Shown: positions 2,460 to 60,317 of the stretch, piece after piece
Layout of the letters: every line of letters begins with the position of its first letter
Position numbering within the stretch: the stretch's first letter is position 1
IMG/VR virus record: IMGVR_UViG_3300009506_000013
Span: 17,033-81,032 of that record
Direction: 5' to 3' (one strand)
Length of the DNA stretch: 64,000 bases
Source: a virus
Program-made: the position numbers and the translations under genes
Notes under the pieces: generated by a model
Seen by the model: only the letters and a program-made list of their open reading frames with translations
Told to the model about the DNA's origin: nothing
Database searches by the model: none

Positions 2460-2942
2460 TCAAAATTTTGACAGCTGTACTAGCGCCACCCGAAAATCCC
2501 GGTCACTCATTCCAGATAGCCTCTTCAATTCTGCTATAGAACACAGCTTCATCCGGCTACTGTGTTCCGTAAATGCGTTGAGCAGTCTCTTCGCATTCAG
2601 GTTGCCCCGGCTCGTAAACACATCCCTGATCCGGACGGGAAACAAATCAGGAGGTGGCTGGTTGGGGACTGAAGGAGTCTCATTGGCTTGACGCAGTTGG
2701 GCCCTCCTCCTTTCCCGGCTCCAGATCTTGGCAAAAGTCTTTTTCACCGCCTCGATGGCATAGGTGCTTTGTTTTGCGCTTCCGGTTGTGTTATACTTCC
2801 CTGCCGCCTTCACCAAAGTCAAACGAGCCTCTTGTAAATAATCCTCGAAATCCCGGCTACAGTCACGGTTCTGCTGGAAAGCCTTCCATGCCAGGCTTTC
2901 TATGTATCTTTCGAGCACGAACTGGGAACTTGGTTTTTTCAT
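2460..2942 (-). CDS. Sigma-70 region 2-like protein
   Basis: 160 residues from the ATG at 2942, chosen because GGAGGAGG precedes it; a longer frame to 2966 lacks a ribosome site. Residues of about 30-85 follow the sigma-70 region 2 pattern: DFEDYLQEARLTLVKAAGKY, then a stretch with STYA and a basic R-rich end. In sigma factors this region binds the core polymerase and the -10 element. A region 4-like helix pair may lie at the C-terminus. It could redirect host RNA polymerase to phage promoters. Its start lies inside the end of the preceding gene. Confidence 0.55.
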   Translation of the reverse strand: MKKPSSQFVLERYIESLAWKAFQQNRDCSRDFEDYLQEARLTLVKAAGKYNTTGSAKQSTYAIEAVKKTFAKIWSRERRRAQLRQANETPSVPNQPPPDLFPVRIRDVFTSRGNLNAKRLLNAFTEHSSRMKLCSIAELKRLSGMSDRDFRVALVQLSKF

Positions 2943-3207
2943 AATCCTCCTCCGATACCATAACATCTGTTCCTGAACATATATTAAGATCCTCTACAAC
3001 TTCCTTCTCTGTAAGTGGCTTCTCTACTCTGGCCCTGATATACGTAGAACCACAGCCTTGGTAGATGACCACTCCCGAAAGCATTTGCATATTGGGCGGA
3101 AACCAAAAATTGGTATTCGCCGGTAGTGTACCCACCTTAACATAATAAAGGCCATGGTACAAGCTCACTGGTGGATTCTTTACTGGGTAACCTTCTTTCT
3201 CCTTCAT
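2863..3207 (-). CDS. Hypothetical protein overlapping the sigma-like gene
   Basis: 114 residues from the ATG at 3207, four bases after GGAGGAG. The last 80 bases overlap the start of the sigma-like gene in another frame, an unusually long overlap for this genome. The middle has a beta-rich look (FWFPPNMQMLSGVVIYQGCG). No family recognised. Confidence 0.55.
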   Translation of the reverse strand: MKEKEGYPVKNPPVSLYHGLYYVKVGTLPANTNFWFPPNMQMLSGVVIYQGCGSTYIRARVEKPLTEKEVVEDLNICSGTDVMVSEEDYEKTKFPVRARKIHRKPGMEGFPAEP

Positions 3208-3218
3208 GGACTCCTCCA

Positions 3219-4952
3219 TTAGAACGGGCAAGCATCATCACTCACTGCCTTATCCGCATCGACATAATCTCTTCCCCAATCGCTCTGGTCGATGGGTCCG
3301 CTGTTCGCTCCTTTCCCCAATATAACATCGATGATACTACTTTTCCCGGCCGCAATTTGGGCCAAGACAACGTCCATACTATTTTGTAACACGAGATGCG
3401 TCACGAGCACCTTATGAGTTTGGCCGATCCGGTGGGAGCGGTCTGCCGCTTGGTTCATCCGCTCTGGCACGACATCCTCTTCCACAAACAGCACATGCCA
3501 TGCGGACGTAAGGTTCAGCCCTACACCCGCCGCCTGTATACTCCCGAAGAAAGGAAGCATTGAAGGATCGCCGTTGTATTGGTCGATGATCGGTTGCCGC
3601 TTCTTTGCTGGTGTCGGCCCGTATACGAGCGCAGATGGCTGGAACTCCCGGTGTAGCCTCTCCAAGACATGGTGGTGGTGCGCGAATACTAACATCTTAT
3701 GTGGATCGTCGGTGAGTGTCTCTTTAAGATATTGGATGGCGTATGGGATCTTGAGGTCAGCCAGCTCCCGCCTCTGCCGGCTATACTCTTCAAAAGAGAT
3801 GGTAACCTGAGAGTCTAGCTCCCCCACGAGCTTGCGGAACTCCGCCGCATTTCCGGCCTCTCTAGCTGTTTTTAAGGCCTTCCTGATAGAATCTGTTGCC
3901 TTCCGGAAATGATCCACCTCTCTGGCCAGCTCGCGGGCCAATTTTGGGCTTTCTACAGGCACTTCAAGGATCTGATACCGCTTATCGGGCAGGTCCAGGT
4001 CCACCTCATCCTTTGTCCTTCGGATCATCACCGACTTCCGGAGCAATTCCTGAAACTGCTCTTCGTTGGATGACCCGCTAAAATCCCAGCCATATCCGTT
4101 GTGTGTCGCTCCGCAAAACGTCTGCGCAAACCACCAAAAGCTTGGCCAGGACTTCGGATCCAGCCAATGGAGCACCCCGAACATCTCCACCGGACGGTTC
4201 TCAATCGGCGAACCACTCAGCGCCGATTTATACCGCGCCTTCAAAGGGGCAAAGGCCTCTTCATTTTTCGGGTTGTCCTTCTTTGGCTCATATCCTAGCA
4301 CCATCTTGGTCCGCATGGCTTTAGGGTTTTTGATAAATTGAGCCTCATCAGACACAATAAGATCCCACGAGACAGAGTCCAGCCGAAACTTATGCCTGTC
4401 GAGGATATCATAATTGATGATAATGATTTGAGCTGCTGGCCAATCGCTCCCCCAACAGATCCCGACACTCAAAGGCCGGACAAGCCAAGTCTTCAGCTCA
4501 TTCTCCCAGTTGACCTTGAGACTGGACTTAGTTATGATCAGAACTCTCTCAATAGTAGGATCGGCGTTGATAAGACCGATAGCCTGGATGGTCTTCCCCA
4601 AGCCCATGTCATCGGCGATGTAGCTATTCTTATGTTCTAGCTGCCACTGGATGCCGGCCTTCTGGTATCCGAAATACTCTTCACCCTCTGGAGCTGGTAA
4701 AGCCCAGTTGGAATCTGTAGCGGATGATTTGGCCAGGTTGGCCTCTCTCTTCTTAATAACATTCGCCAGCATCTCCCGGCACCGTGGCGTGGCGTATTGG
4801 GCTAGTATTGCGGCGTGTTCCGGATTGGTAGTTGCCCAATGGTTGGGCACTATCCGCTTCCAGACAAACTGAGCGCCCTTAGGCACTAGGCGCTCAGCAT
4901 ACGCACAATAACAGACAAACGCCTGGTATCGGTCTGAATAATCTAATTTCAT
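3219..4952 (-). CDS. SNF2-family DNA helicase/translocase
   Basis: 577 residues. All main SNF2 motifs are visible: motif I DDMGLGKT at residues 114-121, motif II DEAQ at 202-205 (DEAH in most SNF2 proteins), motif III LSGSPIEN, motif V GVGLNLTSA and motif VI QAADRSHRIGQ. The protein resembles the compact SMARCAL1/RapA-like form with no accessory domain beyond a short N-terminus. Such proteins translocate on double-stranded DNA using ATP; phages carry them for replication, recombination or transcription restart. Its ATG overlaps the upstream stop by ATGA, so it is translationally coupled. Confidence 0.92.
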   Translation of the reverse strand: MKLDYSDRYQAFVCYCAYAERLVPKGAQFVWKRIVPNHWATTNPEHAAILAQYATPRCREMLANVIKKREANLAKSSATDSNWALPAPEGEEYFGYQKAGIQWQLEHKNSYIADDMGLGKTIQAIGLINADPTIERVLIITKSSLKVNWENELKTWLVRPLSVGICWGSDWPAAQIIIINYDILDRHKFRLDSVSWDLIVSDEAQFIKNPKAMRTKMVLGYEPKKDNPKNEEAFAPLKARYKSALSGSPIENRPVEMFGVLHWLDPKSWPSFWWFAQTFCGATHNGYGWDFSGSSNEEQFQELLRKSVMIRRTKDEVDLDLPDKRYQILEVPVESPKLARELAREVDHFRKATDSIRKALKTAREAGNAAEFRKLVGELDSQVTISFEEYSRQRRELADLKIPYAIQYLKETLTDDPHKMLVFAHHHHVLERLHREFQPSALVYGPTPAKKRQPIIDQYNGDPSMLPFFGSIQAAGVGLNLTSAWHVLFVEEDVVPERMNQAADRSHRIGQTHKVLVTHLVLQNSMDVVLAQIAAGKSSIIDVILGKGANSGPIDQSDWGRDYVDADKAVSDDACPF

Positions 4953-5482
4953 ATGGACATTCTCCTTATTAGATTATCCATTCGGCGTAGAACTTCTGTT
5001 TGCAGTTTTGGCGGAATGAAATGCTTCTTTACTTCTTGGAACATCTGGCTGCTAAGCCACACACCCTTCGAGTCCTTTTCCTTCAACAACTGATACTCTT
5101 GGAACTCTGCGGCGGTGATGGTTATGCTGTTTGCTACGCGGGCACCCTTCGGTGTTGCCGCCTTCTCCGCATCATCCTTATTAAAACGGATCGCCGGAGG
5201 TGGCTGAACCTCTTCCTTATCAGTCTTCAGGTTCTTAATAAGGAAGTCCACAATACCTTTGACGGATGGATTGGTGTACTTGTGCCGTTGAAGCCGGCAA
5301 GTCCAGGTTACCACCATATCATCCCTGTCGAAAGTAAAGTTCATGTTAATTTGGAGCGGCTCCATTTTCGCACTCCAGATCCGGTCCCAGTACTGGCCGA
5401 CAAAATAACCCCGCCGCCCCAGCTCCTTGCGGATCTCTTTTTGCAACCTTGCCTTCTTTTCCCCTTGCGACATAGGTCCCAT
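4949..5482 (-). CDS. Hypothetical protein coupled to the SNF2 helicase
   Basis: 177 residues; the ATG at 5482 follows AAGGAGA. The stop overlaps the helicase start (ATGA), suggesting that the two proteins work together. The N-terminal half has alternating polar and hydrophobic strands (MEPLQINMNFTFDRDDMVVT), and the C-terminus ends in helices rich in Arg and Lys. No family recognised. It is the last gene of the ribozyme-punctuated operon and has a long structured leader. Confidence 0.75.
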   Translation of the reverse strand: MGPMSQGEKKARLQKEIRKELGRRGYFVGQYWDRIWSAKMEPLQINMNFTFDRDDMVVTWTCRLQRHKYTNPSVKGIVDFLIKNLKTDKEEVQPPPAIRFNKDDAEKAATPKGARVANSITITAAEFQEYQLLKEKDSKGVWLSSQMFQEVKKHFIPPKLQTEVLRRMDNLIRRMSI

Positions 5483-5672
5483 GTTTATCTCCTTTCGCTG
5501 TCCTGTTTGCTAACATCTTATCCCCTAAACTTTGGTGGGGTGAAGGATCGCTGTGCCTTCTTGGAGTTCACGCAACTCCCTGCCGCCCCACCACCGGCAG
5601 AATGCGCTTTCCTAGTCACTCAGGAGAGCACTTTGGCCCTTCGAGCTTTAGGCTCGTCAGGCCCACAATTGT
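5483..5672 (-). other. Structured 190-base leader between ribozyme copy 1 and the 4949-5482 gene
   Basis: No convincing reading frame. Three hairpins are visible: GGCC..GAGC/GCUC..GGCC at about 5632-5663, CTGCCG/CGGCAG at about 5579-5599, and GGAGTT/AACTCC at about 5563-5579. The ribosome site AAGGAGA is at the 3' end. It is longer and more folded than any other leader in the array, so it may be a separate regulatory RNA. Confidence 0.45.
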
Positions 5673-5744
5673 CTGGACTTGCGACCAGTAGCCCAATCCT
5701 CTGGGCTAGCGCATTAAGGCCGGATCGCTCCGGCCCCGCTCTGC
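5673..5744 (-). ncRNA. Twister-like ribozyme, copy 1
   Basis: P1 GGCCGGA/UCCGGCC with GCGA tetraloop; P3 UAGCCCA/UGGGCUA with one bulge; P4 CUGG/CCAG with loop UCGCAAGU. The L1 strand is GAGCG, so the expected tertiary pairing is CGC with GCG. Predicted cut between 5716 and 5715. Its first base is the last base of the HNH gene stop codon. Confidence 0.7.
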
Positions 5745-6058
5745 TATGCTACATCCTCTTCCCACTCCTCTTCCTCTTCCTTACTGGGGTTGATCCCGGC
5801 ATTACAGCTCCGGCACAACAGCTCCAGCTCCCCGTTCTCATAGTCCCTCTCATAGCGGACCATCCGTGACCACCGGGACAAATCCCGGCAGGACCAATCC
5901 CGCCCGTTGGGGTGGTGAAATTCTAACTTCCTTTTTTTACCACACTCTTCACAGCACCCGCCCATCTTTATGATTAAGGCTTTCCGCCTCAGTTTGTAGG
6001 CTTTGACGTGATTCAGAGTTTTTCTTCGGCTCCTTTTCTTCCGGACTTCCTCTGTCAT
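5744..6058 (-). CDS. HNH endonuclease-like protein
   Basis: 104 residues. CEEC near residues 36-39, then EFHHPNGRD with the HH pair, and CRSCNAG near residue 85 give the zinc-bound HNH arrangement C..C-HH-C..C. A very basic N-terminus and an acidic tail (a run of Glu and Asp) flank it. HNH enzymes nick or cut DNA; small phage copies act as homing nucleases or as packaging partners of terminase. This one sits far from the terminase, so homing or a DNA-repair role is more likely. The leader contains ribozyme copy 2. Confidence 0.8.
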   Translation of the reverse strand: MTEEVRKKRSRRKTLNHVKAYKLRRKALIIKMGGCCEECGKKRKLEFHHPNGRDWSCRDLSRWSRMVRYERDYENGELELLCRSCNAGINPSKEEEEEWEEDVA

Positions 6059-6115
6059 CTCGTTTCTCCCTTCCAGTATTTTACCCCAGTTTTTAACTGG
6101 ATCATAGCTAAAAAT

Positions 6116-6188
6116 CTGGACTTGTGACCAGTGGCCGGGACAACCCCAGCCAGCGCATTAAGGCCGGATCGCTCCGGCCCCACTCTGC
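6116..6188 (-). ncRNA. Twister-like ribozyme, copy 2
   Basis: P1 GGCCGGA/UCCGGCC with GCGA loop; P3 UGGCUGGG/UCCCGGCCA, including one G-U pair; P4 loop UCACAAGU with L1 GAGUG (CAC with GUG). Predicted cut between 6160 and 6159. Unlike most copies it begins 60 bases after the upstream stop codon. Confidence 0.72.
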
Positions 6189-6247
6189 TAATTTTCTATG
6201 CCCATAACCTTTTCAATCTGACTCCCCGCTTTCCCCTATCAAACCTC

Positions 6248-6679
6248 CTATCCATATATCCGGTCAGCCAAGCACTCCCTCCACAACATTTCTGGGATGT
6301 CTTCCTTCCGGAAGTATGCTTTGACCCTTGGATCAGTTAATAACAACCCTTCCGCCACATCTGGACAAGCATCCTGTAATCGGGAATCATCATACCCGTC
6401 TGCCTTAAGATCCGCCCGGCACTGGCTACAGATCTTATTCAGCTGGCGCTCTGTATATGGCTTTACCTTTGGGGCTGAGGTATTCACCTTGAACGGCCTT
6501 TCCTTCTCCTTTATCCGGATGTAGTCTGGATATAGGATACCGGCATCGCTTTGTATCCTTATTTTATAGGCCACAAAACCACCCCGCCTTCCAAGCTCAA
6601 CCTTCTCCACTACGGTCCCGATTATACAGGTGTTCTTATCTATTCTGAACCGGTCCCTCTTTCCTATCTTTGCTACCAT
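6248..6679 (-). CDS. Hypothetical protein
   Basis: 143 residues; AAAGGAG precedes the ATG. The first 55 residues look like a small beta-barrel (IIGTVVEKVELGRRGGFVAY) and the rest is helical with CSQC near residue 85. No family recognised. Flanked by ribozyme copies 3 (leader) and 2 (downstream). Confidence 0.7.
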   Translation of the reverse strand: MVAKIGKRDRFRIDKNTCIIGTVVEKVELGRRGGFVAYKIRIQSDAGILYPDYIRIKEKERPFKVNTSAPKVKPYTERQLNKICSQCRADLKADGYDDSRLQDACPDVAEGLLLTDPRVKAYFRKEDIPEMLWRECLADRIYG

Positions 6680-6693
6680 TTTGTTTCTCCTTT

Positions 6694-6764
6694 CTGGACT
6701 TGCGACCAGTAGCCCAACCGTTGGGCTAGCGCATTAAGGCCAGGTTGCCCTGGCCCCGCTCTGC
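6694..6764 (-). ncRNA. Twister-like ribozyme, copy 3
   Basis: P1 is GGCCAGG/CCUGGCC closed by GCAA, a different GNRA loop with a compensatory A-U for G-C change against the common P1. P3 UAGCCCAA/UUGGGCUA. P4 loop UCGCAAGU with L1 GAGCG (CGC with GCG). Predicted cut between 6736 and 6735. AAAGGAG follows P4 directly. Confidence 0.74.
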
Positions 6765-6958
6765 TATAAGAGTTTTGATAAAGGTGAACGCCGAACACGG
6801 ACCGCACGAGCGCGGTGTATGAACTGACTACCTTCATACTTCACAATCACCCGTCCGCATCGCCCACAATTCGCTACACGAGAGGCAGGCATACTACCAA
6901 CATCCACCCGGTTTTTCTGCCCACAGTAGGGGCACTGCCGGATCTTAATACATTCCAT
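6764..6958 (-). CDS. Small zinc-ribbon protein
   Basis: 64 residues from the ATG at 6958, which follows GGAGGA of the upstream gene end. CPYC near residues 8-11 and CGRC near residues 31-34 form a zinc ribbon. A similar ribbon (CDAC..CGRC with KNRVD between) is found two genes upstream at 7400-7615, pointing to an old duplication. It is the third member of a three-gene coupled set with no ribozyme inside. The C-terminus is Arg-rich. Confidence 0.72.
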   Translation of the reverse strand: MECIKIRQCPYCGQKNRVDVGSMPASRVANCGRCGRVIVKYEGSQFIHRARAVRVRRSPLSKLL

Positions 6959-6959
6959 G

Positions 6960-7400
6960 TTAGTATCCTCCACCAGAAGCACATTTTGGACCAATCCCGG
7001 CCTTTACAGACTCCGGAGTTGTTAACAACCTACCACATACGCAGCACCGCCCGCAGTGATAGAAGTTGATCTTGGTTGGTATAGAACCTTTAATCAAGTG
7101 ACCGTACCACCACCGGAAGGCAACAGCCGCTTTCGAGTCTTCGCTCATCTTCTTTTTAGAGTGGCGATATTCGCCGCCCTTAATAAGACCCATGAATGAA
7201 TAATCGGAAGTGTTGTCCGGACCTCGAAGCAAGCTGACCCAAAACAGATCCTCTTCCTCAGTCTTTATTGCCTTTGATATCCGATAGGTGAAACGATTCC
7301 CGGTGTCAGGATTCTCAATGGTAAAATAAGCATTCCCGCCAAAGATGAATTTTTTCTGCTCCTCTATTTCGAAGAGCTGGGCAATCGGTAGAGGCTCCAC
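6960..7400 (-). CDS. DUF6011-type protein with C-terminal zinc motif
   Basis: 146 residues from a GTG at 7400 that shares its first base with the upstream TAG stop; GGGAGG precedes it. The C-terminus CGRCCVCGRLLTTPESV followed by GIGPKC is the signature of DUF6011, a cysteine motif found at the ends of many phage and actinobacterial proteins and of unknown role. The N-terminal 100 residues are beta-rich (FTYRISKA, DLFWVSLLRG) and not recognised. Confidence 0.75.
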   Translation of the reverse strand: MEPLPIAQLFEIEEQKKFIFGGNAYFTIENPDTGNRFTYRISKAIKTEEEDLFWVSLLRGPDNTSDYSFMGLIKGGEYRHSKKKMSEDSKAAVAFRWWYGHLIKGSIPTKINFYHCGRCCVCGRLLTTPESVKAGIGPKCASGGGY

Positions 7401-7615
7401 TAGTCACCTCCCAGTTCATCATCTGCGAACAGACCATCATCTGCGAACAGACCATCATCATCGTCATGGTCTTCAACATCGCCCACGCCAAACTGATCGC
7501 GAATTGCATCCTGTAACGGGTTTTTACAGCGCCCGCAAATAGCAGTCTGAACCTTCGCCTCATCCACTCTATTCTTCACCTGACACGCATCGCACTTAAC
7601 AGTCATATTATCCAT
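7400..7615 (-). CDS. Zinc-ribbon protein with acidic repeat tail
   Basis: 71 residues from the ATG at 7615 behind AAGGAG. A longer reading that begins inside the ribozyme is an artefact. CDAC and CGRC form a ribbon like that of the 6764-6958 product. The tail is Asp-rich and holds a tandem GLFADD duplication encoded by an 18-bp direct repeat at about 7423-7458. It overlaps the next gene by one base (TAGTG). Confidence 0.75.
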   Translation of the reverse strand: MDNMTVKCDACQVKNRVDEAKVQTAICGRCKNPLQDAIRDQFGVGDVEDHDDDDGLFADDGLFADDELGGD

Positions 7616-7631
7616 TTTTATCTCCTTTATA

Positions 7632-7701
7632 CCAGACTTGTGACTGGTCTTGGGACAATCCCAAGGCGCATTAAGGCCGGATCGCTCCGGCCCCACTCTG
7701 C
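7632..7701 (-). ncRNA. Twister-like ribozyme, copy 4
   Basis: P4 is inverted relative to the others, CCAG/CUGG instead of CUGG/CCAG, which keeps all pairs. The loop UCACAAGU and L1 GAGUG match (CAC with GUG). P3 CUUGGGA/UCCCAAG; P1 with GCGA loop. Predicted cut between 7673 and 7672. It starts immediately after the upstream TAA. Confidence 0.75.
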
Positions 7702-8040
7702 TTATAGGTTGTTTAGTTCTGCTTCGGTAGCGGTGATGGCTTCCCGGTCAGGATTATCAGCCATCAACTGCCTTTCGAGCTTGGCCTTAAGGTTCTTCAG
7801 ATCCGTGGAATAACCACCCGCCTGTAACGAACTCATGAACAGCCGGACATTGGACAGAAAGAACTCACCCGTGCGGCCCCGGTCATCGACTGCCTGAACC
7901 TTTACCACTCCCTCTTCAATCCAAGCCGCCACGATCCTTGCGGGCCACGCTACCTTGTAGTCATTAAAAGCATGTTCGATCCGCCACGCCGGACAGATGA
8001 ACTGTTCTAAAAGGTTGTTTGATAATGATCCTCGTGCCAT
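7702..8040 (-). CDS. Hypothetical protein
   Basis: 112 residues, ATG behind AAGGAG. A beta-rich middle (WIEEGVVKVQAVDDRGRTGE) is followed by a helical C-terminus with heptad-like Leu spacing (LKNLKAKLERQL). No family recognised. Its stop codon touches ribozyme copy 4; its leader carries only the decayed copy 5. Confidence 0.7.
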   Translation of the reverse strand: MARGSLSNNLLEQFICPAWRIEHAFNDYKVAWPARIVAAWIEEGVVKVQAVDDRGRTGEFFLSNVRLFMSSLQAGGYSTDLKNLKAKLERQLMADNPDREAITATEAELNNL

Positions 8041-8059
8041 TTTGTTTCTCCTTATTAGT

Positions 8060-8109
8060 CTGAACTTGTGACCAACGAATGGGGCCAGGGAAGCCTGACC
8101 CCGCTCTGC
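8060..8109 (-). ncRNA. Degenerate twister-like ribozyme, copy 5
   Basis: The P1 hairpin (GGGGUCAGG/CCUGGCCCC) and the L4 loop UCACAAGU remain, but the UUAAUGCGC core and the whole P3 are missing and P4 is weakened. L1 reads GAGCG while L4 reads CAC, so the tertiary pairing is broken. This copy should not cleave. Confidence 0.6.
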
Positions 8110-8318
8110 TAGCTGTCTTCCCTGCGTTCTGCTTCCCGCAGGTCATCGGCCATATTAACAATGTTCTCGCACAGTTCAATCAGCTTATCCCGATATTCCT
8201 TTTCAGACTTACTGATATCATGATCCGGCCCCTCTTCAATAGCTTCTTCAATAGCCGATTCACAATCAAGTAAATCACGATAGGTGTTCTCAAATCGACA
8301 ATAGCTCATATTGCTCAT
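8109..8318 (-). CDS. Small phage protein of the MSYCRFEN type
   Basis: 69 residues from the ATG at 8318 behind AGGAGAT. The N-terminus MSNMSYCRFENTYRDLLDC resembles a short family seen in many phages, with a conserved YCRFEN-T and a following helix; its function is unknown. The rest is one or two acidic helices. The stop codon TAG shares a base with ribozyme copy 5. Confidence 0.75.
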   Translation of the reverse strand: MSNMSYCRFENTYRDLLDCESAIEEAIEEGPDHDISKSEKEYRDKLIELCENIVNMADDLREAERREDS

Positions 8319-8334
8319 TTTCTTATCTCCTATT

Positions 8335-8407
8335 CTGGACTTGTGACCAGTAGCCTCCACCATAGAGGCTAGCGCATTAAGGCCGGATCGCTCCGGCCCC
8401 ACTCTGC
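8335..8407 (-). ncRNA. Twister-like ribozyme, copy 6
   Basis: P1 GGCCGGA/UCCGGCC with GCGA; P3 UAGCCUC/GAGGCUA; P4 CUGG/CCAG with loop UCACAAGU; L1 GAGUG. Predicted cut between 8379 and 8378. The first base belongs to the upstream TAG stop; AGGAG begins a few bases after P4. Confidence 0.75.
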
Positions 8408-8931
8408 TAGATGATAGGCTTCACTCTATTCGCCCACACCGTGATAAGATCCTTGGGTGCACGGCCAGTGATACGGGCCAGATGACCACCAAAGGCCAGG
8501 TCCAACATTTTCTTCGGGTTGAGTACAGTTACCTTCCCGGTGGTCTTATTAATCCGAACCACCTGGGACTTTGACCACATCCCATTACTCAGGACTTCAA
8601 CCATCTGCCCAACCCGCAACCTCTCTATATAGCCAAAGTTTTTAAGGTATTCAGCAGCCTTCTCTTTGTGCTCTTCGCGGTGAGCTTGGCGCTCCTCCTT
8701 GAATTCATTTCCTGCCGCATACAGCACTTTTCTCTGCTTCGGCGTCAACTTCGCGGGTTTCAACATATGCTCTGGAACAGTGTACATTCCTTCCTCTTCC
8801 GATTTTACTTCAAAACGATAGACAACAGGCTGATATCGCTTACTGACTTTCCGCATCCCCATAACTACTCCAACAACCGTCTTGTGTTTGCGGGAAGATG
8901 TAAACTGAACTGCGTCACCGATATTAAACAT
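8407..8931 (-). CDS. Hypothetical protein with two SH3/KOW-like segments
   Basis: 174 residues. Two beta segments that start with a typical barrel opening (FNIGDAVQFTSS at residue 2 and LRVGQMVEVLSNG at about 105) are joined by a charged helical linker rich in Lys, Glu and Arg. Such folds often bind nucleic acid or proteins. No named family. Flanked by ribozyme copies 7 and 6. Confidence 0.7.
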   Translation of the reverse strand: MFNIGDAVQFTSSRKHKTVVGVVMGMRKVSKRYQPVVYRFEVKSEEEGMYTVPEHMLKPAKLTPKQRKVLYAAGNEFKEERQAHREEHKEKAAEYLKNFGYIERLRVGQMVEVLSNGMWSKSQVVRINKTTGKVTVLNPKKMLDLAFGGHLARITGRAPKDLITVWANRVKPII

Positions 8932-8945
8932 GGTATTTCTCCTTT

Positions 8946-9018
8946 CTGGACTTGCGACCAGTAGACTCCACCATGGAGTCTAGCGCATTAAGGCCGGATC
9001 GCTCCGGCCCCGCTCTGC
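8946..9018 (-). ncRNA. Twister-like ribozyme, copy 7
   Basis: P1 GGCCGGA/UCCGGCC with GCGA; P3 UAGACUCC/GGAGUCUA; P4 loop UCGCAAGU and L1 GAGCG, one of the three CGC-GCG copies. Predicted cut between 8990 and 8989. Confidence 0.75.
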
Positions 9019-9302
9019 TAGTCTTCTTTACACTCAGGATAATCAACCGCTTTAAATACAGGGAACGTCCGCTGAGTCACGGCATTCTGGACTTCCTTTA
9101 AAACACTAAACAGAGCCTCAAGCTCTTGCTCCTGTTCCTTACCACGAACACGGATTTCACAGTTAAAACAAGCCTCACCGTTGCTTCCTGATACTTGAAG
9201 CTCCCCGCGATAGCCATACACCAGACTTAACAGGCCCTTCACATGTTCCACAATTTGGGCATCTGTCGCTTCTGTTACCGTCTCAACCGAATAGTCTTTC
9301 AT
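9018..9302 (-). CDS. Hypothetical protein
   Basis: 94 residues; AAAAGGAGAT precedes the ATG. Predicted alpha/beta: a helix near residues 13-28, then strands (GELQVSG, CFNCEIRVRG) and a helix with repeated Glu and Leu. No family recognised. Leader: ribozyme copy 8. Confidence 0.68.
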   Translation of the reverse strand: MKDYSVETVTEATDAQIVEHVKGLLSLVYGYRGELQVSGSNGEACFNCEIRVRGKEQEQELEALFSVLKEVQNAVTQRTFPVFKAVDYPECKED

Positions 9303-9320
9303 TTCTTATCTCCTTTTATT

Positions 9321-9391
9321 CTGGACTTGTGACCAGTGGCTCCCCCATGGAGCCAGCGCATTAAGGCCGGATCGCTCCGGCCCCACTCTGC
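9321..9391 (-). ncRNA. Twister-like ribozyme, copy 8
   Basis: P1 GGCCGGA/UCCGGCC with GCGA; P3 UGGCUCC/GGAGCCA; P4 loop UCACAAGU with L1 GAGUG. Predicted cut between 9363 and 9362. Confidence 0.75.
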
Positions 9392-9600
9392 TAAGATGCC
9401 CGCTGAAGGATTATCTCTCTTGCCTCTATAGCGCGGACATTGGTTATCTCGTTTTGTAGCTCTAAAAGATACGTTTGCTCAACTCCTGAAGCCTCCGCAT
9501 AGTTCATCAGGCCTTGGATATAGGCTTCGTAAACACGGACCATCCGTTTCAGAGTCTTCTCTTCCTCTACCACTATTCTCTTCACGTTGTTATTAGCCAT
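9391..9600 (-). CDS. Small helical protein
   Basis: 69 residues, apparently all helix (EEEKTLKRMVRVYEAYIQGL, then LELQNEITNVRAIEAREI). No motif recognised. Its ribosome site AGGAG abuts P4 of ribozyme copy 9. Confidence 0.65.
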   Translation of the reverse strand: MANNNVKRIVVEEEKTLKRMVRVYEAYIQGLMNYAEASGVEQTYLLELQNEITNVRAIEAREIILQRAS

Positions 9601-9612
9601 TTCTTTTCTCCT

Positions 9613-9689
9613 CTGGACTTGTGACCAGTACCAGGGACAATCCCCGGTAGCGCATTAAGCTGGAGTCTTAAGACTCCAGCCCACTCTGC
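9613..9689 (-). ncRNA. Twister-like ribozyme, copy 9, overlapping a gene end
   Basis: P1 has an unrelated sequence, GCUGGAGUC/GACUCCAGC around UUAA, yet pairs perfectly. P3 UACCGGGG/UCCCUGGUA with one G-U pair; P4 loop UCACAAGU with L1 GAGUG. Predicted cut between 9657 and 9656. The last residues and the TAA of the SprT-like gene are read through P2, L1 and P1. Confidence 0.75.
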
Positions 9690-10117
9690 TGTAGCGTCCA
9701 GATAGCAACTAAATCAGCCATCCGGCTTGACTCTTCCATAGTCAACAGCCCATCCGCAAACATCCTTTCCCATTTGCGAAACGCAGGGCCGTGACCCTCG
9801 TCAGCGCCATCCTTATACTTGCCCAGCCGAACGGGTTGGGCACTGTTGCAAATAAACCCGTGGACCAGCTCGTGCCACAGGATGCTTCGGACCTCTTTCA
9901 AATACCGCCCATATTTGAGCGGCTTTTCAAAGAACTTATTCAGGGCGATTGTCCGGGCCGCAACGTCATACTGACCGAAGACCACGCCCGGCAACCCGGC
10001 CTGATTAACTGTTATTGGGAACTGCTGGAAGGATACTTTCACCACACAGCCGGAGCCATTCAAGTATCCTTCATCCATCTCCTTCACCAACTGGAAAAGC
10101 AAAGATTCTATTTGCAT
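9668..10117 (-). CDS. SprT-like zinc metallopeptidase
   Basis: 149 residues. HELVH at residues 82-86 with a third possible ligand in EGHGPAF about 27 residues later fits the SprT/Spartan-like fold (HExxH..H). Cellular relatives degrade DNA-protein crosslinks; phage versions are common in DNA metabolism regions. Its start overlaps the upstream gene by ten bases, so no ribozyme separates them. The stop codon lies in the P1 loop of ribozyme copy 9. Confidence 0.82.
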   Translation of the reverse strand: MQIESLLFQLVKEMDEGYLNGSGCVVKVSFQQFPITVNQAGLPGVVFGQYDVAARTIALNKFFEKPLKYGRYLKEVRSILWHELVHGFICNSAQPVRLGKYKDGADEGHGPAFRKWERMFADGLLTMEESSRMADLVAIWTLQQSGLES

Positions 10118-10770
10118 CGCGCATACCCTGCCTTCCCGCCGATTTTAACCTTGCGGATAATTCCAAGTCTCACAAGGTGCCCAGCGACCATCTTCAAACG
10201 GCCAGCTGGATTCGAGCTTTTAATGTTGGGAATGAGTTCAGCAATAGCGTCATCCAGTGTAATAGAAGGATATTTGACCAGTAATTCCGCGCAAAACCTT
10301 ATAGAGGTATTTGGCAACCAGGCCGGAAGACCATCCGGACCAATCGGAGGTATTGCGGAAGTCCCACCACCCGTCTTGGCCTTCTTTGCTTTCGCCGTTG
10401 ACGTTGTAGTAGTCTGTTTGTTTTCGAGCTTATCAATATAAGATTGGATCTGCGGCGGATTCAGCGCCACCGCAAACCGTTCCATATACTTCAAAGCCAT
10501 CCGCAAACTTGTTTCCTTCTCTTCCGGAAACTGTGTGCCCAAGGCGCGGGCACGGCATTTACCTGCGATGTTCCAGATTTTAACAGCATCATCGGGCAGG
10601 TACTTCACACCGGGATTCTGTCGCTGTAATCTCTGAAGACTCCCACAAATCGGGTCCATCACGGATATCGCCTGGATTAATAGGCTTGTCCGAAGACTTA
10701 AGTCATCGTGGGCACGGGAAAATGCCGCGTAAATCTTTTCAATCATTTTCCTTGGATTTGCTTTCGCCAT
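10108..10770 (-). CDS. Hypothetical protein with C-terminal winged-helix-like domain
   Basis: 220 residues. Helical N-terminus, a Thr/Lys/Gly linker at about 118-138, then an alpha/beta domain (CAELLVKYPSITLDDAIAEL, GRLKMVAGHLVRLGIIRKV) that resembles the end of the zinc-ribbon protein at 1709-2416. Likely DNA or protein binding. It is followed with overlap by the SprT-like gene. Confidence 0.68.
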   Translation of the reverse strand: MAKANPRKMIEKIYAAFSRAHDDLSLRTSLLIQAISVMDPICGSLQRLQRQNPGVKYLPDDAVKIWNIAGKCRARALGTQFPEEKETSLRMALKYMERFAVALNPPQIQSYIDKLENKQTTTTSTAKAKKAKTGGGTSAIPPIGPDGLPAWLPNTSIRFCAELLVKYPSITLDDAIAELIPNIKSSNPAGRLKMVAGHLVRLGIIRKVKIGGKAGYARCK

Positions 10771-10782
10771 TTCTTTTCTCCT

Positions 10783-10855
10783 CTGGACTTGTGACCAGTG
10801 GCCGGGACAACCCCGACCAGCGCATTAAGGCCGGATCGCTCCGGCCCCACTCTGC
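10783..10855 (-). ncRNA. Twister-like ribozyme, copy 10
   Basis: P1 GGCCGGA/UCCGGCC with GCGA; P3 UGGUCGGG/UCCCGGCCA with a U-G pair at a place where copy 2 has C-G; P4 loop UCACAAGU, L1 GAGUG. Predicted cut between 10827 and 10826. AGGAG starts one base after P4. Confidence 0.76.
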
Positions 10856-11575
10856 TTATTCGCTCCCCGTCCCCAACAGCGGACGGTTCGCAACCGCAAG
10901 AAATTTCGCCTCAAACTCAGCCTCACTCGTGATCTCCTCATGAACTCCCCCGGTGATTGCGCTCAGGGTTTTGAGGTTATCACTACCATTTCGGCCATAC
11001 CAGCTGTCTTCGCGGCCAATAAAAATGGTGTCAATAATAACGCCAGCCGTTTTGGCTTGTTCGGCGGCATCGAGGGCAACATCATAGTCATGCATATCGC
11101 CATCCGATGTAAGGATAATTCTGGGCGTATAATCTTTGTTCTTCTTCAGAAGAGTCAACGCCGCACGGATACCCTTTCCAGCATAAGTCCCGTTTCCATT
11201 CGCATACAGCGCACGAACAGCATCCTTGATCTCATCCAGGTTCGATGAGCCTCTCAGAGGTATTCGAGTGTTTTTCCCGAACTCAACAACGCCAATCTTC
11301 ATGGACAGGGCCTTTTCGCCAATCCGTTCATTCGCATACTTCTCAACAACCTTCTTTTGAAGGTCAACCTTCCGTGAACCGCTGTAGCGGTCTTCGCCCA
11401 TCCCATCATTCATCGAATAGGAAGCATCCAACACGAAACAGAGATATTGGAAATTATCAAAGAAGTCATTCAGATCCATACTACCAGCACTCAGGATCAA
11501 ATCCTCTTCTTTTTTCGTCATGGAAGTTGCGGTTGTTACGATAGAAGTGTTTTTGGAAGTTTTGTTATCAGACAT
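10856..11575 (-). CDS. von Willebrand factor A domain protein
   Basis: 239 residues from the ATG at 11575 behind AGGAG; a longer reading into the ribozyme is an artefact. The metal-ion site is complete: DASYS at residues 50-54 (DxSxS), TYAG near 136 and TSDGD near 162. vWA domains bind partner proteins in a magnesium-dependent way. In phages they occur near MoxR-type ATPases, tellurite-type proteins or alone; no ATPase partner is seen here. Flanked by ribozyme copies 11 and 10. Confidence 0.85.
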   Translation of the reverse strand: MSDNKTSKNTSIVTTATSMTKKEEDLILSAGSMDLNDFFDNFQYLCFVLDASYSMNDGMGEDRYSGSRKVDLQKKVVEKYANERIGEKALSMKIGVVEFGKNTRIPLRGSSNLDEIKDAVRALYANGNGTYAGKGIRAALTLLKKNKDYTPRIILTSDGDMHDYDVALDAAEQAKTAGVIIDTIFIGREDSWYGRNGSDNLKTLSAITGGVHEEITSEAEFEAKFLAVANRPLLGTGSE

Positions 11576-11596
11576 GGTATTTCTCCTTTTTAAAAA

Positions 11597-11670
11597 CTGG
11601 ACTTGTGACCAGTTAGATTCCACCATGGAATCTAGCGCATTAAGGCCGGATCGCTCCGGCCCCACTCTGC
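11597..11670 (-). ncRNA. Twister-like ribozyme, copy 11
   Basis: P1 GGCCGGA/UCCGGCC with GCGA; P3 UAGAUUCC/GGAAUCUA, which differs from copy 7 by a paired C-G to U-A change; P4 loop UCACAAGU, L1 GAGUG. Predicted cut between 11642 and 11641. Confidence 0.76.
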
Positions 11671-11861
11671 TAATTTTCTATCCAAGCAACGCTTTTCGCA
11701 TTCAATAGTTCCAGTCTCACCTCTTCCAGCATTTGGATATCGGCCTCGTGTTTCCTCTTGCTTCGAGCTGAGAAAGAAAGTTTGTCAATCCGGTCTTGGA
11801 TAGCGTCAACCACCGCCAACTGCTGGCGGATACTCAGAAAGTGTACCATTAAGTCTTTCAT
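11670..11861 (-). CDS. Small coiled-coil-like protein
   Basis: 63 residues, predicted helical throughout with regular hydrophobic spacing (LAVVDAIQDRIDKLSF, then ADIQMLEEVRLELL). No family recognised. GGAG precedes the ATG. Confidence 0.65.
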   Translation of the reverse strand: MKDLMVHFLSIRQQLAVVDAIQDRIDKLSFSARSKRKHEADIQMLEEVRLELLNAKSVAWIEN

Positions 11862-11873
11862 TTTTTATCTCCT

Positions 11874-11946
11874 CTGGACTTGTGACCAGTGGCCGGGACA
11901 ACCCCAGCCAGCGCATTAAGGCCGGATCGCTCCGGCCCCACTCTGC
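11874..11946 (-). ncRNA. Twister-like ribozyme, copy 12
   Basis: P1 GGCCGGA/UCCGGCC with GCGA; P3 UGGCUGGG/UCCCGGCCA; P4 loop UCACAAGU, L1 GAGUG. Predicted cut between 11918 and 11917. Starts directly after the upstream TAA; AGGAG follows P4. Confidence 0.76.
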
Positions 11947-12246
11947 TTAAGGCTCATAAAATCTAACATCGAAATCATTACAAGCCCTCATGAAATCCAG
12001 TATCGTCATCGTGTCAGATAACCGGCGCAGGAAGGCATAACCGTTCATTCCTTCCACCGTAGAATACTGGTCAAGATCATTCTCGTAGATATGGACGCCA
12101 TTGGCGTCAACCACGATCCCATAAGCCTTCTCAACATCTTGCGAGATTAGAACCAACCCGACCAACGGATCAGAACCATCACCAAAACTCTCAGCACTCG
12201 AAAAGGCATCCCAATCTTGCTTATCAAACTTTCTAAGATTAATCAT
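11947..12246 (-). CDS. Hypothetical acidic protein
   Basis: 99 residues, strongly acidic, alpha/beta. A strand pair (VGLVLISQ, GIVVDANGVHIYE) is followed by a helical C-terminus (FLRRLSDTMTILDFMRAC). No family recognised. Both flanks are ribozymes (copies 13 and 12). Confidence 0.66.
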   Translation of the reverse strand: MINLRKFDKQDWDAFSSAESFGDGSDPLVGLVLISQDVEKAYGIVVDANGVHIYENDLDQYSTVEGMNGYAFLRRLSDTMTILDFMRACNDFDVRFYEP

Positions 12247-12258
12247 TTTGTTTCTCCT

Positions 12259-12331
12259 CTGGACTTGTGACCAGTAGCCTCCACCATAGAGGCTAGCGCA
12301 TTAAGGCCGGATCGCTCCGGCCCCACTCTGC
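12259..12331 (-). ncRNA. Twister-like ribozyme, copy 13
   Basis: Same P1, P3 (UAGCCUC/GAGGCUA) and core as copy 6; P4 loop UCACAAGU, L1 GAGUG. Predicted cut between 12303 and 12302. Confidence 0.76.
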
Positions 12332-12582
12332 TAGTCTTCCAACTCATCCAACCCATCGAGGCAAGCCTCAACTTCATACAACCGCTGAGCCTCTTTCGCG
12401 GATATCTTCACGGAGGAAACAACCAGCCAGTTGTTATCGTCCAAGACATCCCCAACCTGTGTAACCACGGGGCAATTCTTTCCATCGAACACTTTCTTCA
12501 TGGCGGCATTTAACTCATCCACCGGAATTTGATCTGCCCAATCCCAAAATATTAACTCAGTCTTTACTGTGTTCTTTTTCAT
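12331..12582 (-). CDS. Hypothetical acidic protein
   Basis: 83 residues from the ATG at 12582 behind GGAG. Alpha/beta with strands at LIFWDW and NWLVVSSVKIS and an acidic C-terminal helix. No family recognised. Confidence 0.66.
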   Translation of the reverse strand: MKKNTVKTELIFWDWADQIPVDELNAAMKKVFDGKNCPVVTQVGDVLDDNNWLVVSSVKISAKEAQRLYEVEACLDGLDELED

Positions 12583-12595
12583 TTTCTTTTCTCCT

Positions 12596-12666
12596 CTGGA
12601 CTTGTGACCAGTGGCTCCCCCATGGAGCCAGCGCATTAAGGCCGGATCGCTCCGGCCCCACTCTGC
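12596..12666 (-). ncRNA. Twister-like ribozyme, copy 14
   Basis: P1 GGCCGGA/UCCGGCC with GCGA; P3 UGGCUCC/GGAGCCA as in copy 8; P4 loop UCACAAGU, L1 GAGUG. Predicted cut between 12638 and 12637. Confidence 0.76.
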
Positions 12667-12899
12667 TAACCGTTCCAAACCTCAACGCCAGTAACCGTCA
12701 CTTTCATATTAATTCCGGCATCGGCCACGAACTTTTTGACCAGTTCCTTCGCAACATCCTTGTTTCGAGCCTCCACAAGGATCTCATCCAGCGTATCCAC
12801 GCAACCGCCAAGAATATAGGTACAACGGTATTTTTTCGGCGTGACCTTATGGTGTGGTTGCCGACGCATCGAAGTCCCCCATCCATTGTTTCTTCCCAT
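12666..12899 (-). CDS. Hypothetical basic protein
   Basis: 77 residues from the ATG at 12899 behind AGGAGAT. Basic N-terminus (MRRQPHHK, TPKKYR), then a strand-helix-strand unit (LDEILVEARNKDVAKELVKK, KVTVTGVEV). No family recognised. Confidence 0.66.
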   Translation of the reverse strand: MGRNNGWGTSMRRQPHHKVTPKKYRCTYILGGCVDTLDEILVEARNKDVAKELVKKFVADAGINMKVTVTGVEVWNG

Positions 12900-12915
12900 T
12901 TTCTTATCTCCTATT

Positions 12916-12988
12916 CTGGACTTGTGACCAGTGGCCGGGACAACCCCAGCCAGCGCATTAAGGCCGGATCGCTCCGGCCCCACTCTGC
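12916..12988 (-). ncRNA. Twister-like ribozyme, copy 15
   Basis: Same P1 and P3 (UGGCUGGG/UCCCGGCCA) as copies 2 and 12; P4 loop UCACAAGU, L1 GAGUG. Predicted cut between 12960 and 12959. Confidence 0.76.
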
Positions 12989-13191
12989 TAGTAACAATCT
13001 ATTCCTTTCACCACGCATCCGGTGTTCAGGCCCTTTACCTCTTCAACCAGCGCCTCCCAGTACTTTCTAGCTGGCGCCTCTCTTTTATATTTACGGTTCC
13101 AACTCTCAAACGCGGGCCTGCGATTAAGAGTACAAAAAATCTCAAAGCCATCTTTGGTTTCGAAAAACGAAATTCTAATTGTATCGCTCAT
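12988..13191 (-). CDS. Hypothetical protein
   Basis: 67 residues from the ATG at 13191 behind GGAG. A beta start (IRISFFETKDGFEIFC) is followed by a basic, aromatic stretch and a helix. No family recognised. Confidence 0.65.
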   Translation of the reverse strand: MSDTIRISFFETKDGFEIFCTLNRRPAFESWNRKYKREAPARKYWEALVEEVKGLNTGCVVKGIDCY

Positions 13192-13203
13192 GGTGTTTCT
13201 CCT

Positions 13204-13282
13204 CTGGACTTGTGACCAGTAGCCCAACCGCTGGGCTAGCGCATTAAACGGATGGCAATGCACTTACCATCCGCCACTCTGC
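13204..13282 (-). ncRNA. Twister-like ribozyme, copy 16, overlapping a reading frame
   Basis: P1 is CGGAUGG/CCAUCCG with an 11-base loop, unrelated in sequence to the others. P3 UAGCCCA/UGGGCUA; P4 loop UCACAAGU with L1 GAGUG. Predicted cut between 13246 and 13245. It is the first copy in transcription order. A 66-residue reading frame runs through P2, L1, P1 and the core and stops in P3. Confidence 0.72.
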
Positions 13283-13436
13283 AAATTTTGGAGAATTTTC
13301 CGATCTCTTTTAGCAAAATACCGTATCGGTCACCCGCGACAATCGAATCACACTCGATTACTGAGCCACCCCGCTCAATTGGGACTTGCGATATTTCACC
13401 GTCTGTTTCACCGGGTGTCTTATCCACCCTGCCCAC
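13236..13436 (-). CDS. Possible first gene of the array, ending inside ribozyme copy 16
   Basis: 66 residues from a GTG at 13436 with only a weak ribosome site (GTAGG). The sequence is beta-rich (GGSVIECDSIVAGDRYGILL). Its last 15 codons also form the ribozyme P2, L1 and P1, and the stop lies past the predicted cut site, so cleavage would leave a message without a stop codon. It may be a real gene or a chance frame. Confidence 0.45.
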   Translation of the reverse strand: MGRVDKTPGETDGEISQVPIERGGSVIECDSIVAGDRYGILLKEIGKFSKICRVADGKCIAIRLMR

Positions 13437-13735
13437 AACCTACTTTGTTCAGCTCTGGGTCCGCCTCACCTCCTCCGGATTTTAGCGGTAGCACCTTGGG
13501 CTCCCCGTTTTTCGGATCTTTGCCATCAGGTCTGGCCTTTTGTTTTTTCTCCGGTGGCCTTCGATTTTCATCAACCGGATTTTCCGCTGGCTCCTTCGGT
13601 TCCGCCTTCGGTCGGCTTCTTTAATTCCGCTCCCCCTGACCTTGGGCTTTCCCTTCCGCCTTTCTTTTTCGCCCTTCCGGTTTCCCCCAGTCATGCCGAT
13701 GTCGGCCTCAGTTGGGTTCCACGTTTATAGGGTGT
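13437..13735 (-). pseudogene. Possible broken Lys/Pro-rich coding region
   Basis: One minus-strand frame reads like a Lys/Pro/Gly-rich protein on both sides of an in-frame TAA near 13621 (KPEGRKRKAEGK before it, KAEPKEPAENP and EKKQKARPDGKDPKNGEPK after it), ending with a TAA near 13433. There is no start codon after the internal stop. A second frame at 13482-13694 has a start but encodes a mostly Arg/Lys string. Neither is convincing; a decayed gene or a leader region are both possible. Confidence 0.3.
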
Positions 13736-13821
13736 ACCGCTTTTCGCTTCCCCGCCCCCCCTTTCTTCTTTCTACTCTATTTAACTTTATCATCTTACCT
13801 TATCCTTTCTTACTGTACTTA

Positions 13822-13850
13822 AATATAATGGAAAATGAAGGGATAGTCTA
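13822..13850 (-). promoter_or_regulatory. Candidate sigma-70-type promoter for the ribozyme-punctuated operon
   Basis: On the minus strand TAGACT (-35, 4 of 6) is followed after 17 bases by TATATT (-10, 5 of 6). Long A-tracts lie just upstream at about 13852-13884, as in an UP element. It is the only strongly AT-rich gap between the primase region and the array. The rest of 13736-13941 shows nothing else I can name. Confidence 0.45.
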
Positions 13851-41047: not shown

Positions 41048-42052
41048 CTATATAAAGTTGACGTGTTCTAATCGGGGAAGCTCGTTGTCCCACTCTATGG
41101 GAAGATGCCCTGCTATAATATCACTCAGCAGTTCATTCTGGACACTAAAGACGCAACGCGGACATTTCGCCGTATCTATCAAGCTTCCGCTTATCTCCTT
41201 GTCCCAATAGAACTCCTCCACTCTATCCCAACGGCAAAGCGCATAATCAGGATGAAATCTCCTATCGTCTGAAGGACTGTTTAAAACAAGCGAATCACAC
41301 GGGTAGATGTACCCATCAGTATACAAGACTGGGTGAACGCGGCCAAGATGACACTCTCGCGGCTGTACAAGAAACTTTCTTTGATGGAAGAAAGGTGGTC
41401 CCAACTCTGCGGCCTTCCTTCTTAAGAAGTGGTTGGCGGCATCGAACTGATCCGGAGGCAGGTTGCAATCAGGGATAAGCCGGACATAGCGGATGGGATG
41501 ACTCCGGATAGCCTTCTGGATTTTCTCCATAGCCGGAGGCATCCCGCCTCCACCGGGCCACACATAGCTCATCCCCACGGTGATATTCTCTGGAACTCTG
41601 GGAATGATATCGGCAGACGGGAGATAATCCCACGTGTTTGCCGAAACACGGATCCAACAGACAGTTGAGTCAGTAAAGTGCGCGTTGTTTAGTACTGCAC
41701 CATTTGTGATCAGGCCAACATCCAGCTTCATCTCCTTTAAGAACTTCAAAAGGCGTCCCAAACTTGCATACAGCGTTGGCTCGCCGCCACCACTAATAAT
41801 CACAGCCTTCAGCCCCAACGGGATCATCCTATAAACAACATCTTCTATAATCCCGAAATACAAATCAGGAAACAGCCTTCCTTCCCGGCCCCGATCTGCA
41901 ACAGAACAGAACTTACACCGGAGGTTACACCGTTCTGTCGGCATAACGTGGAGGGTGATGGGATGATTCCTGCGGTCTATAAGATCCTTAATCGCATCCA
42001 TGTGGTAGCGTAATTTTTGCCCCGTCGATGTATAGCTATTAAGTCTGTCCAT
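41048..42052 (-). CDS. Radical SAM enzyme with C-terminal cysteine cluster
   Basis: 334 residues from the ATG at 42052 (TAATG). The iron-sulfur motif is C42-x3-C46-x2-C49 (CNLRCKFC), followed by GGGEPTLY, the SAM-binding GGE motif. C-terminal cysteines (RECHLG, YPCDS, CPRCVF) recall the SPASM/twitch domain that binds extra clusters. Radical SAM enzymes modify peptides, sugars or cofactors. Here the partner is unknown; lying between glycosyltransferases, it may act on a sugar or on a virion peptide. Confidence 0.88.
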   Translation of the reverse strand: MDRLNSYTSTGQKLRYHMDAIKDLIDRRNHPITLHVMPTERCNLRCKFCSVADRGREGRLFPDLYFGIIEDVVYRMIPLGLKAVIISGGGEPTLYASLGRLLKFLKEMKLDVGLITNGAVLNNAHFTDSTVCWIRVSANTWDYLPSADIIPRVPENITVGMSYVWPGGGGMPPAMEKIQKAIRSHPIRYVRLIPDCNLPPDQFDAANHFLRRKAAELGPPFFHQRKFLVQPRECHLGRVHPVLYTDGYIYPCDSLVLNSPSDDRRFHPDYALCRWDRVEEFYWDKEISGSLIDTAKCPRCVFSVQNELLSDIIAGHLPIEWDNELPRLEHVNFI

Positions 42053-59440: not shown

Positions 59441-59696
59441 CTTCCGCCAGCGGACACGCCAGACAATCCTCCGGCTTACAATCCATTCCCGAACCTTCCC
59501 AGCGCCATAACGCATCCACAACAGTTACTGCCGGGACTTCTACACCTGACCAACGGCCTGTTGTGGCGTGAACTGCGATCCGGATGGCACAATAGTATAC
59601 CAGCTTTCTTGGCATCTTATTCGACAGCCACATCCAGAACATTTCCTTCCAAACCGCCCGCTTTATCCTCCAGCGAGTCCAAATGCTAAATTCCAT
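59412..59696 (-). CDS. Hypothetical protein overlapping terL start
   Basis: 94 residues. Basic, Trp-rich N-terminus (WTRWRIKRAVWKEMFWMW) and a Cys cluster near the end (CKPEDCLACP). No family recognised. The gene ends inside terL. Confidence 0.6.
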   Translation of the reverse strand: MEFSIWTRWRIKRAVWKEMFWMWLSNKMPRKLVYYCAIRIAVHATTGRWSGVEVPAVTVVDALWRWEGSGMDCKPEDCLACPLAEDGADGLTVN

Positions 59697-59713
59697 TTTG
59701 TCCTCCTTCAGGA

Positions 59714-59914
59714 CTATTCGAACGTGCCACCATGTTTGGTCAGCCGTTCATTCAGCACCTCACACTCCCAGCCCTTCGATTCGCAATATTTTATGATTTG
59801 ACCCTTATCCCAACCAGCCATGTACTTGACAATCGGCGCACAACGGTTACTGCGGCCCCTGTTGCGTAGAATGACCCCTGCAGTGAAATGAGGTGCTGTT
59901 ATTCGAAGCAACAT
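59714..59914 (-). CDS. Small hypothetical protein
   Basis: 66 residues; its first base is the last base of the upstream stop. Alpha/beta, with KGQIIKYCESKGWECEVLNE as the most regular segment. No family recognised. Confidence 0.55.
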   Translation of the reverse strand: MLLRITAPHFTAGVILRNRGRSNRCAPIVKYMAGWDKGQIIKYCESKGWECEVLNERLTKHGGTFE

Positions 59915-60300: not shown

Positions 60301-60317
60301 CTCTTCTCCCCTGTACA

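Follow-up and report, generated by a model that had tools for sequence, protein, structure and literature searches.

The window analysed here, a stretch of 64,000 nucleotides (nt) corresponding to bases 17033-81032 of the 81,032-base record of a soil phage (IMGVR_UViG_3300009506_000013), harbours an array of twister ribozymes between the genes of one operon. The elements are 71-80 nt long, and fifteen intact copies plus one decayed copy are located on the minus strand, between 5673 and 13283 (Table 1). A second phage, here called G092 (IMGVR_UViG_3300027896_000024, 82.9 kb), possesses an array with the same layout and different ribozyme sequences. Co-transcriptional self-cleavage at a U-A step probably processes one transcript into monocistronic messenger RNAs (mRNAs), with the ribozymes acting as operon punctuation. 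An initial annotation of the stretch had placed sixteen copies at 5673 to 13282 on the minus strand. These coordinates were correct (5673 to 13282/13283), and fifteen copies were found intact, whereas the remaining one (8057-8109) is a core-less remnant that lost UUAAUGC and P3.

Rfam cmscan detected fourteen matches to the Twister-P5 model (RF02684) above the gathering score, with 44.6-51.4 bits. A fifteenth match (13204-13283) reached 37.4 bits, 0.2 below the cut-off of 37.6. The Twister-P1 model (RF03160) remained below its cut-off of 67.2 everywhere, with a maximum of 25.7 bits in the record, and RF02684 had no match in 14 control genomes. Judged from their sequences, the elements are type-P5 twister ribozymes, with the circular permutation of P5 rather than P1, in agreement with the class and strand order proposed by the initial annotation. 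Like other RF02684 twisters, they combine a covariance-model match, the conserved core, the T1 pseudoknot, the P5 permutation and a U-A step at the expected place. They differ in that fifteen copies are arrayed on the same strand between the genes of a single operon, and in that most copies possess a long variable P3 hairpin and lack the outer C-G pair on P2. The P5 stem is absent from the window elements, which had been listed as a weak point. Its absence does not count against the identification, since twister ribozymes require P1, P2 and P4 but not P3 or P5 (PMC5408937), and since the type-P5 model of Rfam matches without these two. The predicted membership in the twister class fits each feature that was decisively tested.

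Unconstrained minimum free energy (MFE) folds of five copies gave P2, P1, P3 and P4, with z-scores of -3.2 to -4.9. Stems P1, P2 and P4 were present in all 30 copies of the two phages; in the copy at 13283, P1 pairs past a one-base bulge. All fifteen intact copies of the window possess the U-A step at the predicted cleavage site. The T1 pseudoknot between L1 and L4 is formed by U:A in twelve window copies (GAG-U-G with UC-A-CAAG) and by C:G in three (GAG-C-G with UC-G-CAAG), and the T1 pair is preserved in 30 out of 30 copies of the window phage and G092, as U:A, C:G or G:C. Further viral motifs were collected by a pattern that left both T1 bases (N1 and N2) free. Among 151 distinct motifs, T1 was Watson-Crick in 142 (U:A in 113, G:C in 21, A:U in 6, C:G in 2) and otherwise in nine. 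The tertiary pairing of L1 with L4, which had been predicted from the window alone, thus covaries in the window, in G092 and in the wider set. In 146 motifs, pairing in P1, P4 and T1 exceeded the maximum of 500 shuffles at each varying position, also with one motif per locus. Including wobbles, the values were 96% against 45% in the shuffles for P1.3, and 97% against 65% for T1. The candidate T2 pairing (strand after P2 with L4), inspected by eye, is GC/GU in the window and mostly AC/GU in G092, which is pairable; the pattern had fixed these bases. Nineteen columns are invariant in the 30 copies of the two phages and correspond to the twister core (GCAGAG, UAAUGC, GUC.CAAG), in line with the roughly ten highly conserved L1 and L4 bases of twisters. 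At the other aligned positions the two phages shared a mean identity of 49%, and the copies of the window and of G092 averaged 74% and 56% among themselves.

Several copies deviate from the rest. Copy 1 has a distinct P1 and overlaps the 3' end of the open reading frame (ORF) 13236-13436. Copy 8 (9613-9690) also differs in P1, and its P1 loop contains the UAA stop of the upstream ORF. In copy 12, P4 is changed to CCAG/CUGG, and in copy 13, P1 is altered, with pairing preserved in both. Identical copies were found at distant junctions (12989, 11947 and 6189; 12667 and 9392; 12332 and 8408), which points to copying between sites. The decayed copy retains a P1-like hairpin, most of L4 (CACAAG-like), the downstream Shine-Dalgarno (SD) sequence and its junction, and it represents a natural catalytic-null control.

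The operon comprises 19 junctions from gene 13236-13436 to gene 4949-5482, and sixteen of them have a gap of at least 40 nt. All sixteen gaps are occupied, fifteen by intact ribozymes and one (8040/8109) by the decayed copy, and the three overlapping or abutting junctions (-10, -1, +1) have none, so that the placement at operon junctions described in the initial annotation stands. The ribozymes lie on the sense strand, and the TAG stop of the preceding gene often shares its G with GCAGAG. An AGGAG (SD) box is located 0-9 nt past P4 in 13 out of 15 copies and at 46 nt for the copy at 6188; no ribosome-binding site was found near 5744. The occurrence of the array is far beyond chance, because RF02684 is absent from the 14 control genomes and has no match above the cut-off in 41 phages with a related terminase (partly fragments).

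Phage G092 was reached via its major capsid protein (76% identity). Its corresponding operon possesses fifteen twister-P5 matches on one strand, twelve of them above the cut-off. The array proteins of the two phages share an identity of only about 40%, with orthologues including the VWA protein (41%), a 220-aa protein (39%), a 149-aa protein (35%) and the DUF6011 protein (43%), and the G092 array also runs into an SNF2 helicase gene (38%). In G092, T1 is G:C in 15 out of 15 ribozymes, the P3 hairpin is mostly absent and the P1 stems are different, while the core is intact in all. The gene content of the arrays also differs, as a ribozyme-flanked 72-aa gene of G092 sits between orthologues that overlap in the window. 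The predicted fold, the active-site bases and the placement at junctions are conserved between the two phages despite the sequence change.

The pattern scan of viral contigs matched at least 120 stretches. Among 50 records, selected for having a match, at least two copies occur in half and 5-7 copies in eight. Among 130 distinct motifs from other viral contigs, 100 (77%) are placed exactly in the interval between a stop codon on the same strand and an SD with its start codon; random positions on that strand gave 8% and the antisense strand 2%. Relative to the motif start, the stop codon mostly ends at -2 to +1, or at +9, that is, within L1. In many viral loci (L009-L134) the stop ends at +9 of the motif (GCAGAGUGA), so that the UGA of the upstream gene lies within L1, in agreement with U being the favoured base at N1 of T1. 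This location suggests an interplay of ribosome and ribozyme. Eight other arrays comprise 45 ribozymes, of which 39 are located at junctions, and several of these arrays have every gap of at least 50 nt occupied. In each of two viral contigs, L011 (IMGVR_UViG_3300036791_000055) and L010, one strand has a mixed cluster of matches, some to twister-P5 and others, below threshold, to twister-P1.

A cultured phage with twisters was also found. Tunturi_4 (PP885687.1), a siphovirus of Tunturiibacter empetritectus (host strain M8UP27) with a capsid protein 47% identical to that of the window phage, encodes four twisters, each between annotated genes and with predicted cleavage sites within 58349-63149, and in one of them an apparent double change of T1 was seen by eye (GAGGA with UUCCAAG). 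Ribozymes are not mentioned in the description of this phage (PMC11924767). A cultured phage with four copies is thus available for testing mRNA processing, and the near-complete array of the window, retained with changed sequence at corresponding junctions of G092, makes the processing answer directly testable.

We propose that RNA polymerase reads the accessory module, which is probably early, as one polycistronic RNA. Each ribozyme would fold on emergence, forming the P1 hairpin, P2, the P3 hairpin and P4, and L4 would dock into L1 via T1, after which the folded ribozyme would cut its own strand at the U-A step. The upstream mRNA would then end a few bases past its stop codon with the GC-rich P1 hairpin and a 2',3'-cyclic phosphate. 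The downstream mRNA would begin with a 5'-OH and AAUGC, followed by a uniform leader of two hairpins (P3 and P4) up to the SD box and AUG. Single-gene mRNAs with standard ends would insulate the level and decay of each gene from its neighbours, and new cassettes of gene plus ribozyme could be inserted into the operon. From the sequences we infer cleavage activity, transcript processing and a benefit to expression through mRNA stability or insulation. Message cutting without a protein enzyme is probable, because ribozymes are present at nearly all boundaries and the relative has the same layout with different sequences.

Several observations weigh against this proposal. Outside the array, the same phage has 29 gaps of 40 nt or more without a twister. 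None of the 41 phages with a related terminase and none of 26 further capsid relatives (both sets partly fragments) has a twister-P5 above the cut-off, so that arrays seem to come and go. The predicted accessibility of ribosome-binding sites is nearly the same in cut RNA (0.77) and in uncut RNA (0.70); a gain in access through cleavage is small on average and was not relied on as the benefit. Moreover, an engineered twister in an E. coli 5'-untranslated region (5'-UTR) with an accessible SD left expression unchanged (PMC5052635), and cleavage may therefore matter little for the downstream gene. Given this result and the nearly constant access, cleavage may serve to separate adjacent messages, to form 3' ends or to allow gating by terminating ribosomes, rather than simply to activate the downstream gene. 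Since the ribozyme begins at the stop codon of the preceding gene, which in some phages lies within L1, cutting could be gated by a terminating ribosome and processing thereby coupled to upstream translation.

Other explanations of the array were considered. The repeats might act mainly as DNA, as homologous linkers for the recombinational shuffling of accessory gene cassettes, with RNA cleavage being incidental. We regard this as unlikely. The identical copies at distant junctions of the window array and the gene content that differs between phages, for example the extra ribozyme-flanked 72-aa gene of G092, are in line with linkers. Nonetheless, the G092 copies are 56% identical outside the invariant core, which is poor for homologous recombination, and their helices and T1 are all kept. 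A DNA linker also has no need of compensatory changes, strand bias or an intact active site, and a linker effect is most likely a side effect and not the reason for maintenance. Slightly less probable again is a selfish or neutral element, with twisters spreading since insertions between stop codon and SD are tolerated and self-cleavage at such sites is nearly harmless. Such an element would be in line with the patchy distribution, in which none of the 41 terminase relatives and none of the 26 further capsid relatives has a match above the cut-off, with the decay of one copy at a retained junction and with the near neutrality of cleavage upstream of an accessible SD in E. coli (PMC5052635). 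It agrees poorly with fifteen of sixteen copies being intact in the window and with the fifteen intact cores of G092, given an identity of only about 40% between the array proteins, and no mobility gene accompanies each copy.

It is very improbable that the elements are structural RNAs that no longer cleave and serve as protective 3'-end hairpins, attenuators or terminators. In the folds, P1 is a strong GC hairpin that immediately follows the stop codon and might protect against 3' exonucleases, yet the twister-core bases are the most conserved part of the element and a U tract is absent after P1. No terminator-like site coincides with any copy, and the reading as intrinsic terminators or attenuators was rejected.

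The processing of transcripts into single-gene mRNAs by clustered prophage hammerheads was already proposed by Perreault et al. in 2011 (PMC3088659), and the description of the array as a new mode of phage gene control in the initial annotation was for that reason overstated. In vitro cleavage was shown for tandem arrays of the prophage hammerheads, and one of them, an A. tumefaciens triple, also cleaved in E. coli (PMC3088659). Similar to the window array, several ribozymes of a self-cleaving class flank single genes in phage operons there. They belong to another ribozyme class and the tested examples are small clusters, whereas the array described here is near-complete and conserved in two phages. 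Bacterial hammerheads and twisters cluster near genes of Mu-like phages and near each other, for a reason that the authors call unknown (PMC10085705). The window array shows the same kind of genomic association, but here it is rule-like, with one ribozyme per spaced junction, on the sense strand, starting at the stop codon and placed immediately ahead of the following SD. No report of an array of such size or of such junction statistics was found in the literature searched, with Roth et al. 2014 being outside its reach. New are the near-complete coverage of junctions, the conservation in a relative, the general statistics and the cultured test phage Tunturi_4, while the processing principle itself dates from 2011.

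RiboJ is an engineered, hammerhead-based element used as a single copy. In this synthetic insulator, a self-cleaving ribozyme in the 5'-UTR defines the leader of the next gene (PMC6206723). The window array would similarly provide, through ribozymes of a self-cleaving class, a defined leader for the next gene; it is natural, twister-based and used at every junction. If mRNA processing by the array is confirmed, synthetic ribozyme insulators would have a counterpart in nature, from which numerous compact parts of 50-80 nt for operon punctuation could be drawn. A wider idea, which we put forward tentatively and hold somewhat less probable than its opposite, is that ribozyme-punctuated operons are a general expression strategy of phages, in which cassettes of gene plus twister would make any operon they enter monocistronic, with a standard 5'-OH leader and possibly ribosome gating.

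Table 1. Twister-P5 copies and further features of the window; scores are for RF02684
Feature	Position	Strand	Score (bits)	Predicted cut after	Remarks
Twister-P5 copy 1	13204..13283	-	37.4	U 13246	
Twister-P5 copy 2	12916..12989	-	48.3	U 12960	MFE fold z -3.68
Twister-P5 copy 3	12596..12667	-	49.4	U 12638	
Twister-P5 copy 4	12259..12332	-	48.8	U 12303	
Twister-P5 copy 5	11874..11947	-	48.3	U 11918	identical to copies 2 and 14 (alignment)
Twister-P5 copy 6	11597..11671	-	48.6	U 11642	
Twister-P5 copy 7	10783..10856	-	48.3	U 10827	after VWA gene, likewise in G092
Twister-P5 copy 8	9613..9690	-	44.6	U 9657	fold z -4.93
Twister-P5 copy 9	9321..9392	-	49.4	U 9363	identical to copy 3 in sequence
Twister-P5 copy 10	8946..9019	-	46.8	U 8990	T1 pair C:G
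Twister-P5 copy 11	8335..8408	-	48.8	U 8379	identical to copy 4 in sequence
Decayed copy	8057..8109	-	no Rfam match		without UUAAUGC cleavage site and P3; T1 broken (C against A)
Twister-P5 copy 12	7632..7702	-	51.4	U 7673	top score
Twister-P5 copy 13	6694..6765	-	47.5	U 6736	T1 C:G
Twister-P5 copy 14	6116..6189	-	48.3	U 6160	
Twister-P5 copy 15 (last)	5673..5745	-	47.2	U 5716	T1 C:G
VWA-domain protein gene	10856..11575	-			Pfam PF00092; ribozyme on either side in window and G092; 41% identity to G092 protein
DUF6011 protein gene	6960..7400	-			Pfam PF19474; within array in window and G092; 43% identity
Putative HNH endonuclease gene	5744..6058	-			phrog_2255, E 2e-5; flanked by copies 14 and 15; last gene ahead of the latter
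SNF2-type helicase gene	3219..4952	-			Pfam PF00176/PF00271; adjoins array end in window and G092; 38% identity
Candidate array promoter	13822..13850	-			TAGACT-17-TATATT; pattern scan

The window comes from a tailed phage, with genes for the large terminase, a DUF4055 protein, a Mu F-like protein, a Gp13-like major capsid protein, a primase and a DnaB-like helicase, and nearly all of its genes are on the minus strand. Small accessory genes, mostly without an assigned function, run from the primase and helicase genes to the SNF2-type helicase gene. The location of the putative HNH endonuclease gene (5744-6058) in the array could have a bearing on the spread of ribozyme copies. No close DNA relatives of the window phage were detected in INPHARED, and the array protein 10108-10770, used as bait, revealed no viral relatives. 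A gene for a Radical SAM enzyme is present at 41048-42052 (minus strand), in the structural half of the phage genome.

A purine-rich stretch of 500-640 nt without a convincing gene precedes the first ribozyme in the window (13284-13800, minus strand) and in G092 (20780-21418, plus strand; 2780-3418 of locus L269). ORFs 13482-13694 and 13236-13436 may be spurious. The two stretches showed no likeness by blastn, and 13284-13800 had no phage DNA match. No structured RNA is claimed for the start of the array, as the fold z-scores were only -0.96 (window) and -0.39 (G092). A sigma70-like promoter match lies upstream of the purine-rich stretch in both phages. The pattern scan gave ten promoter-like sites against 9.7 expected, and the candidate at 13822..13850 is thus no more than chance by count. 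Past the last ribozyme, a candidate hammerhead noted by eye in 5483-5672 (CUGACGA...CUCGAAG) had no Rfam support at E values up to 10. This stretch of 190 nt (minus strand) is predicted to form several stable hairpins, with a z-score of -2.15.

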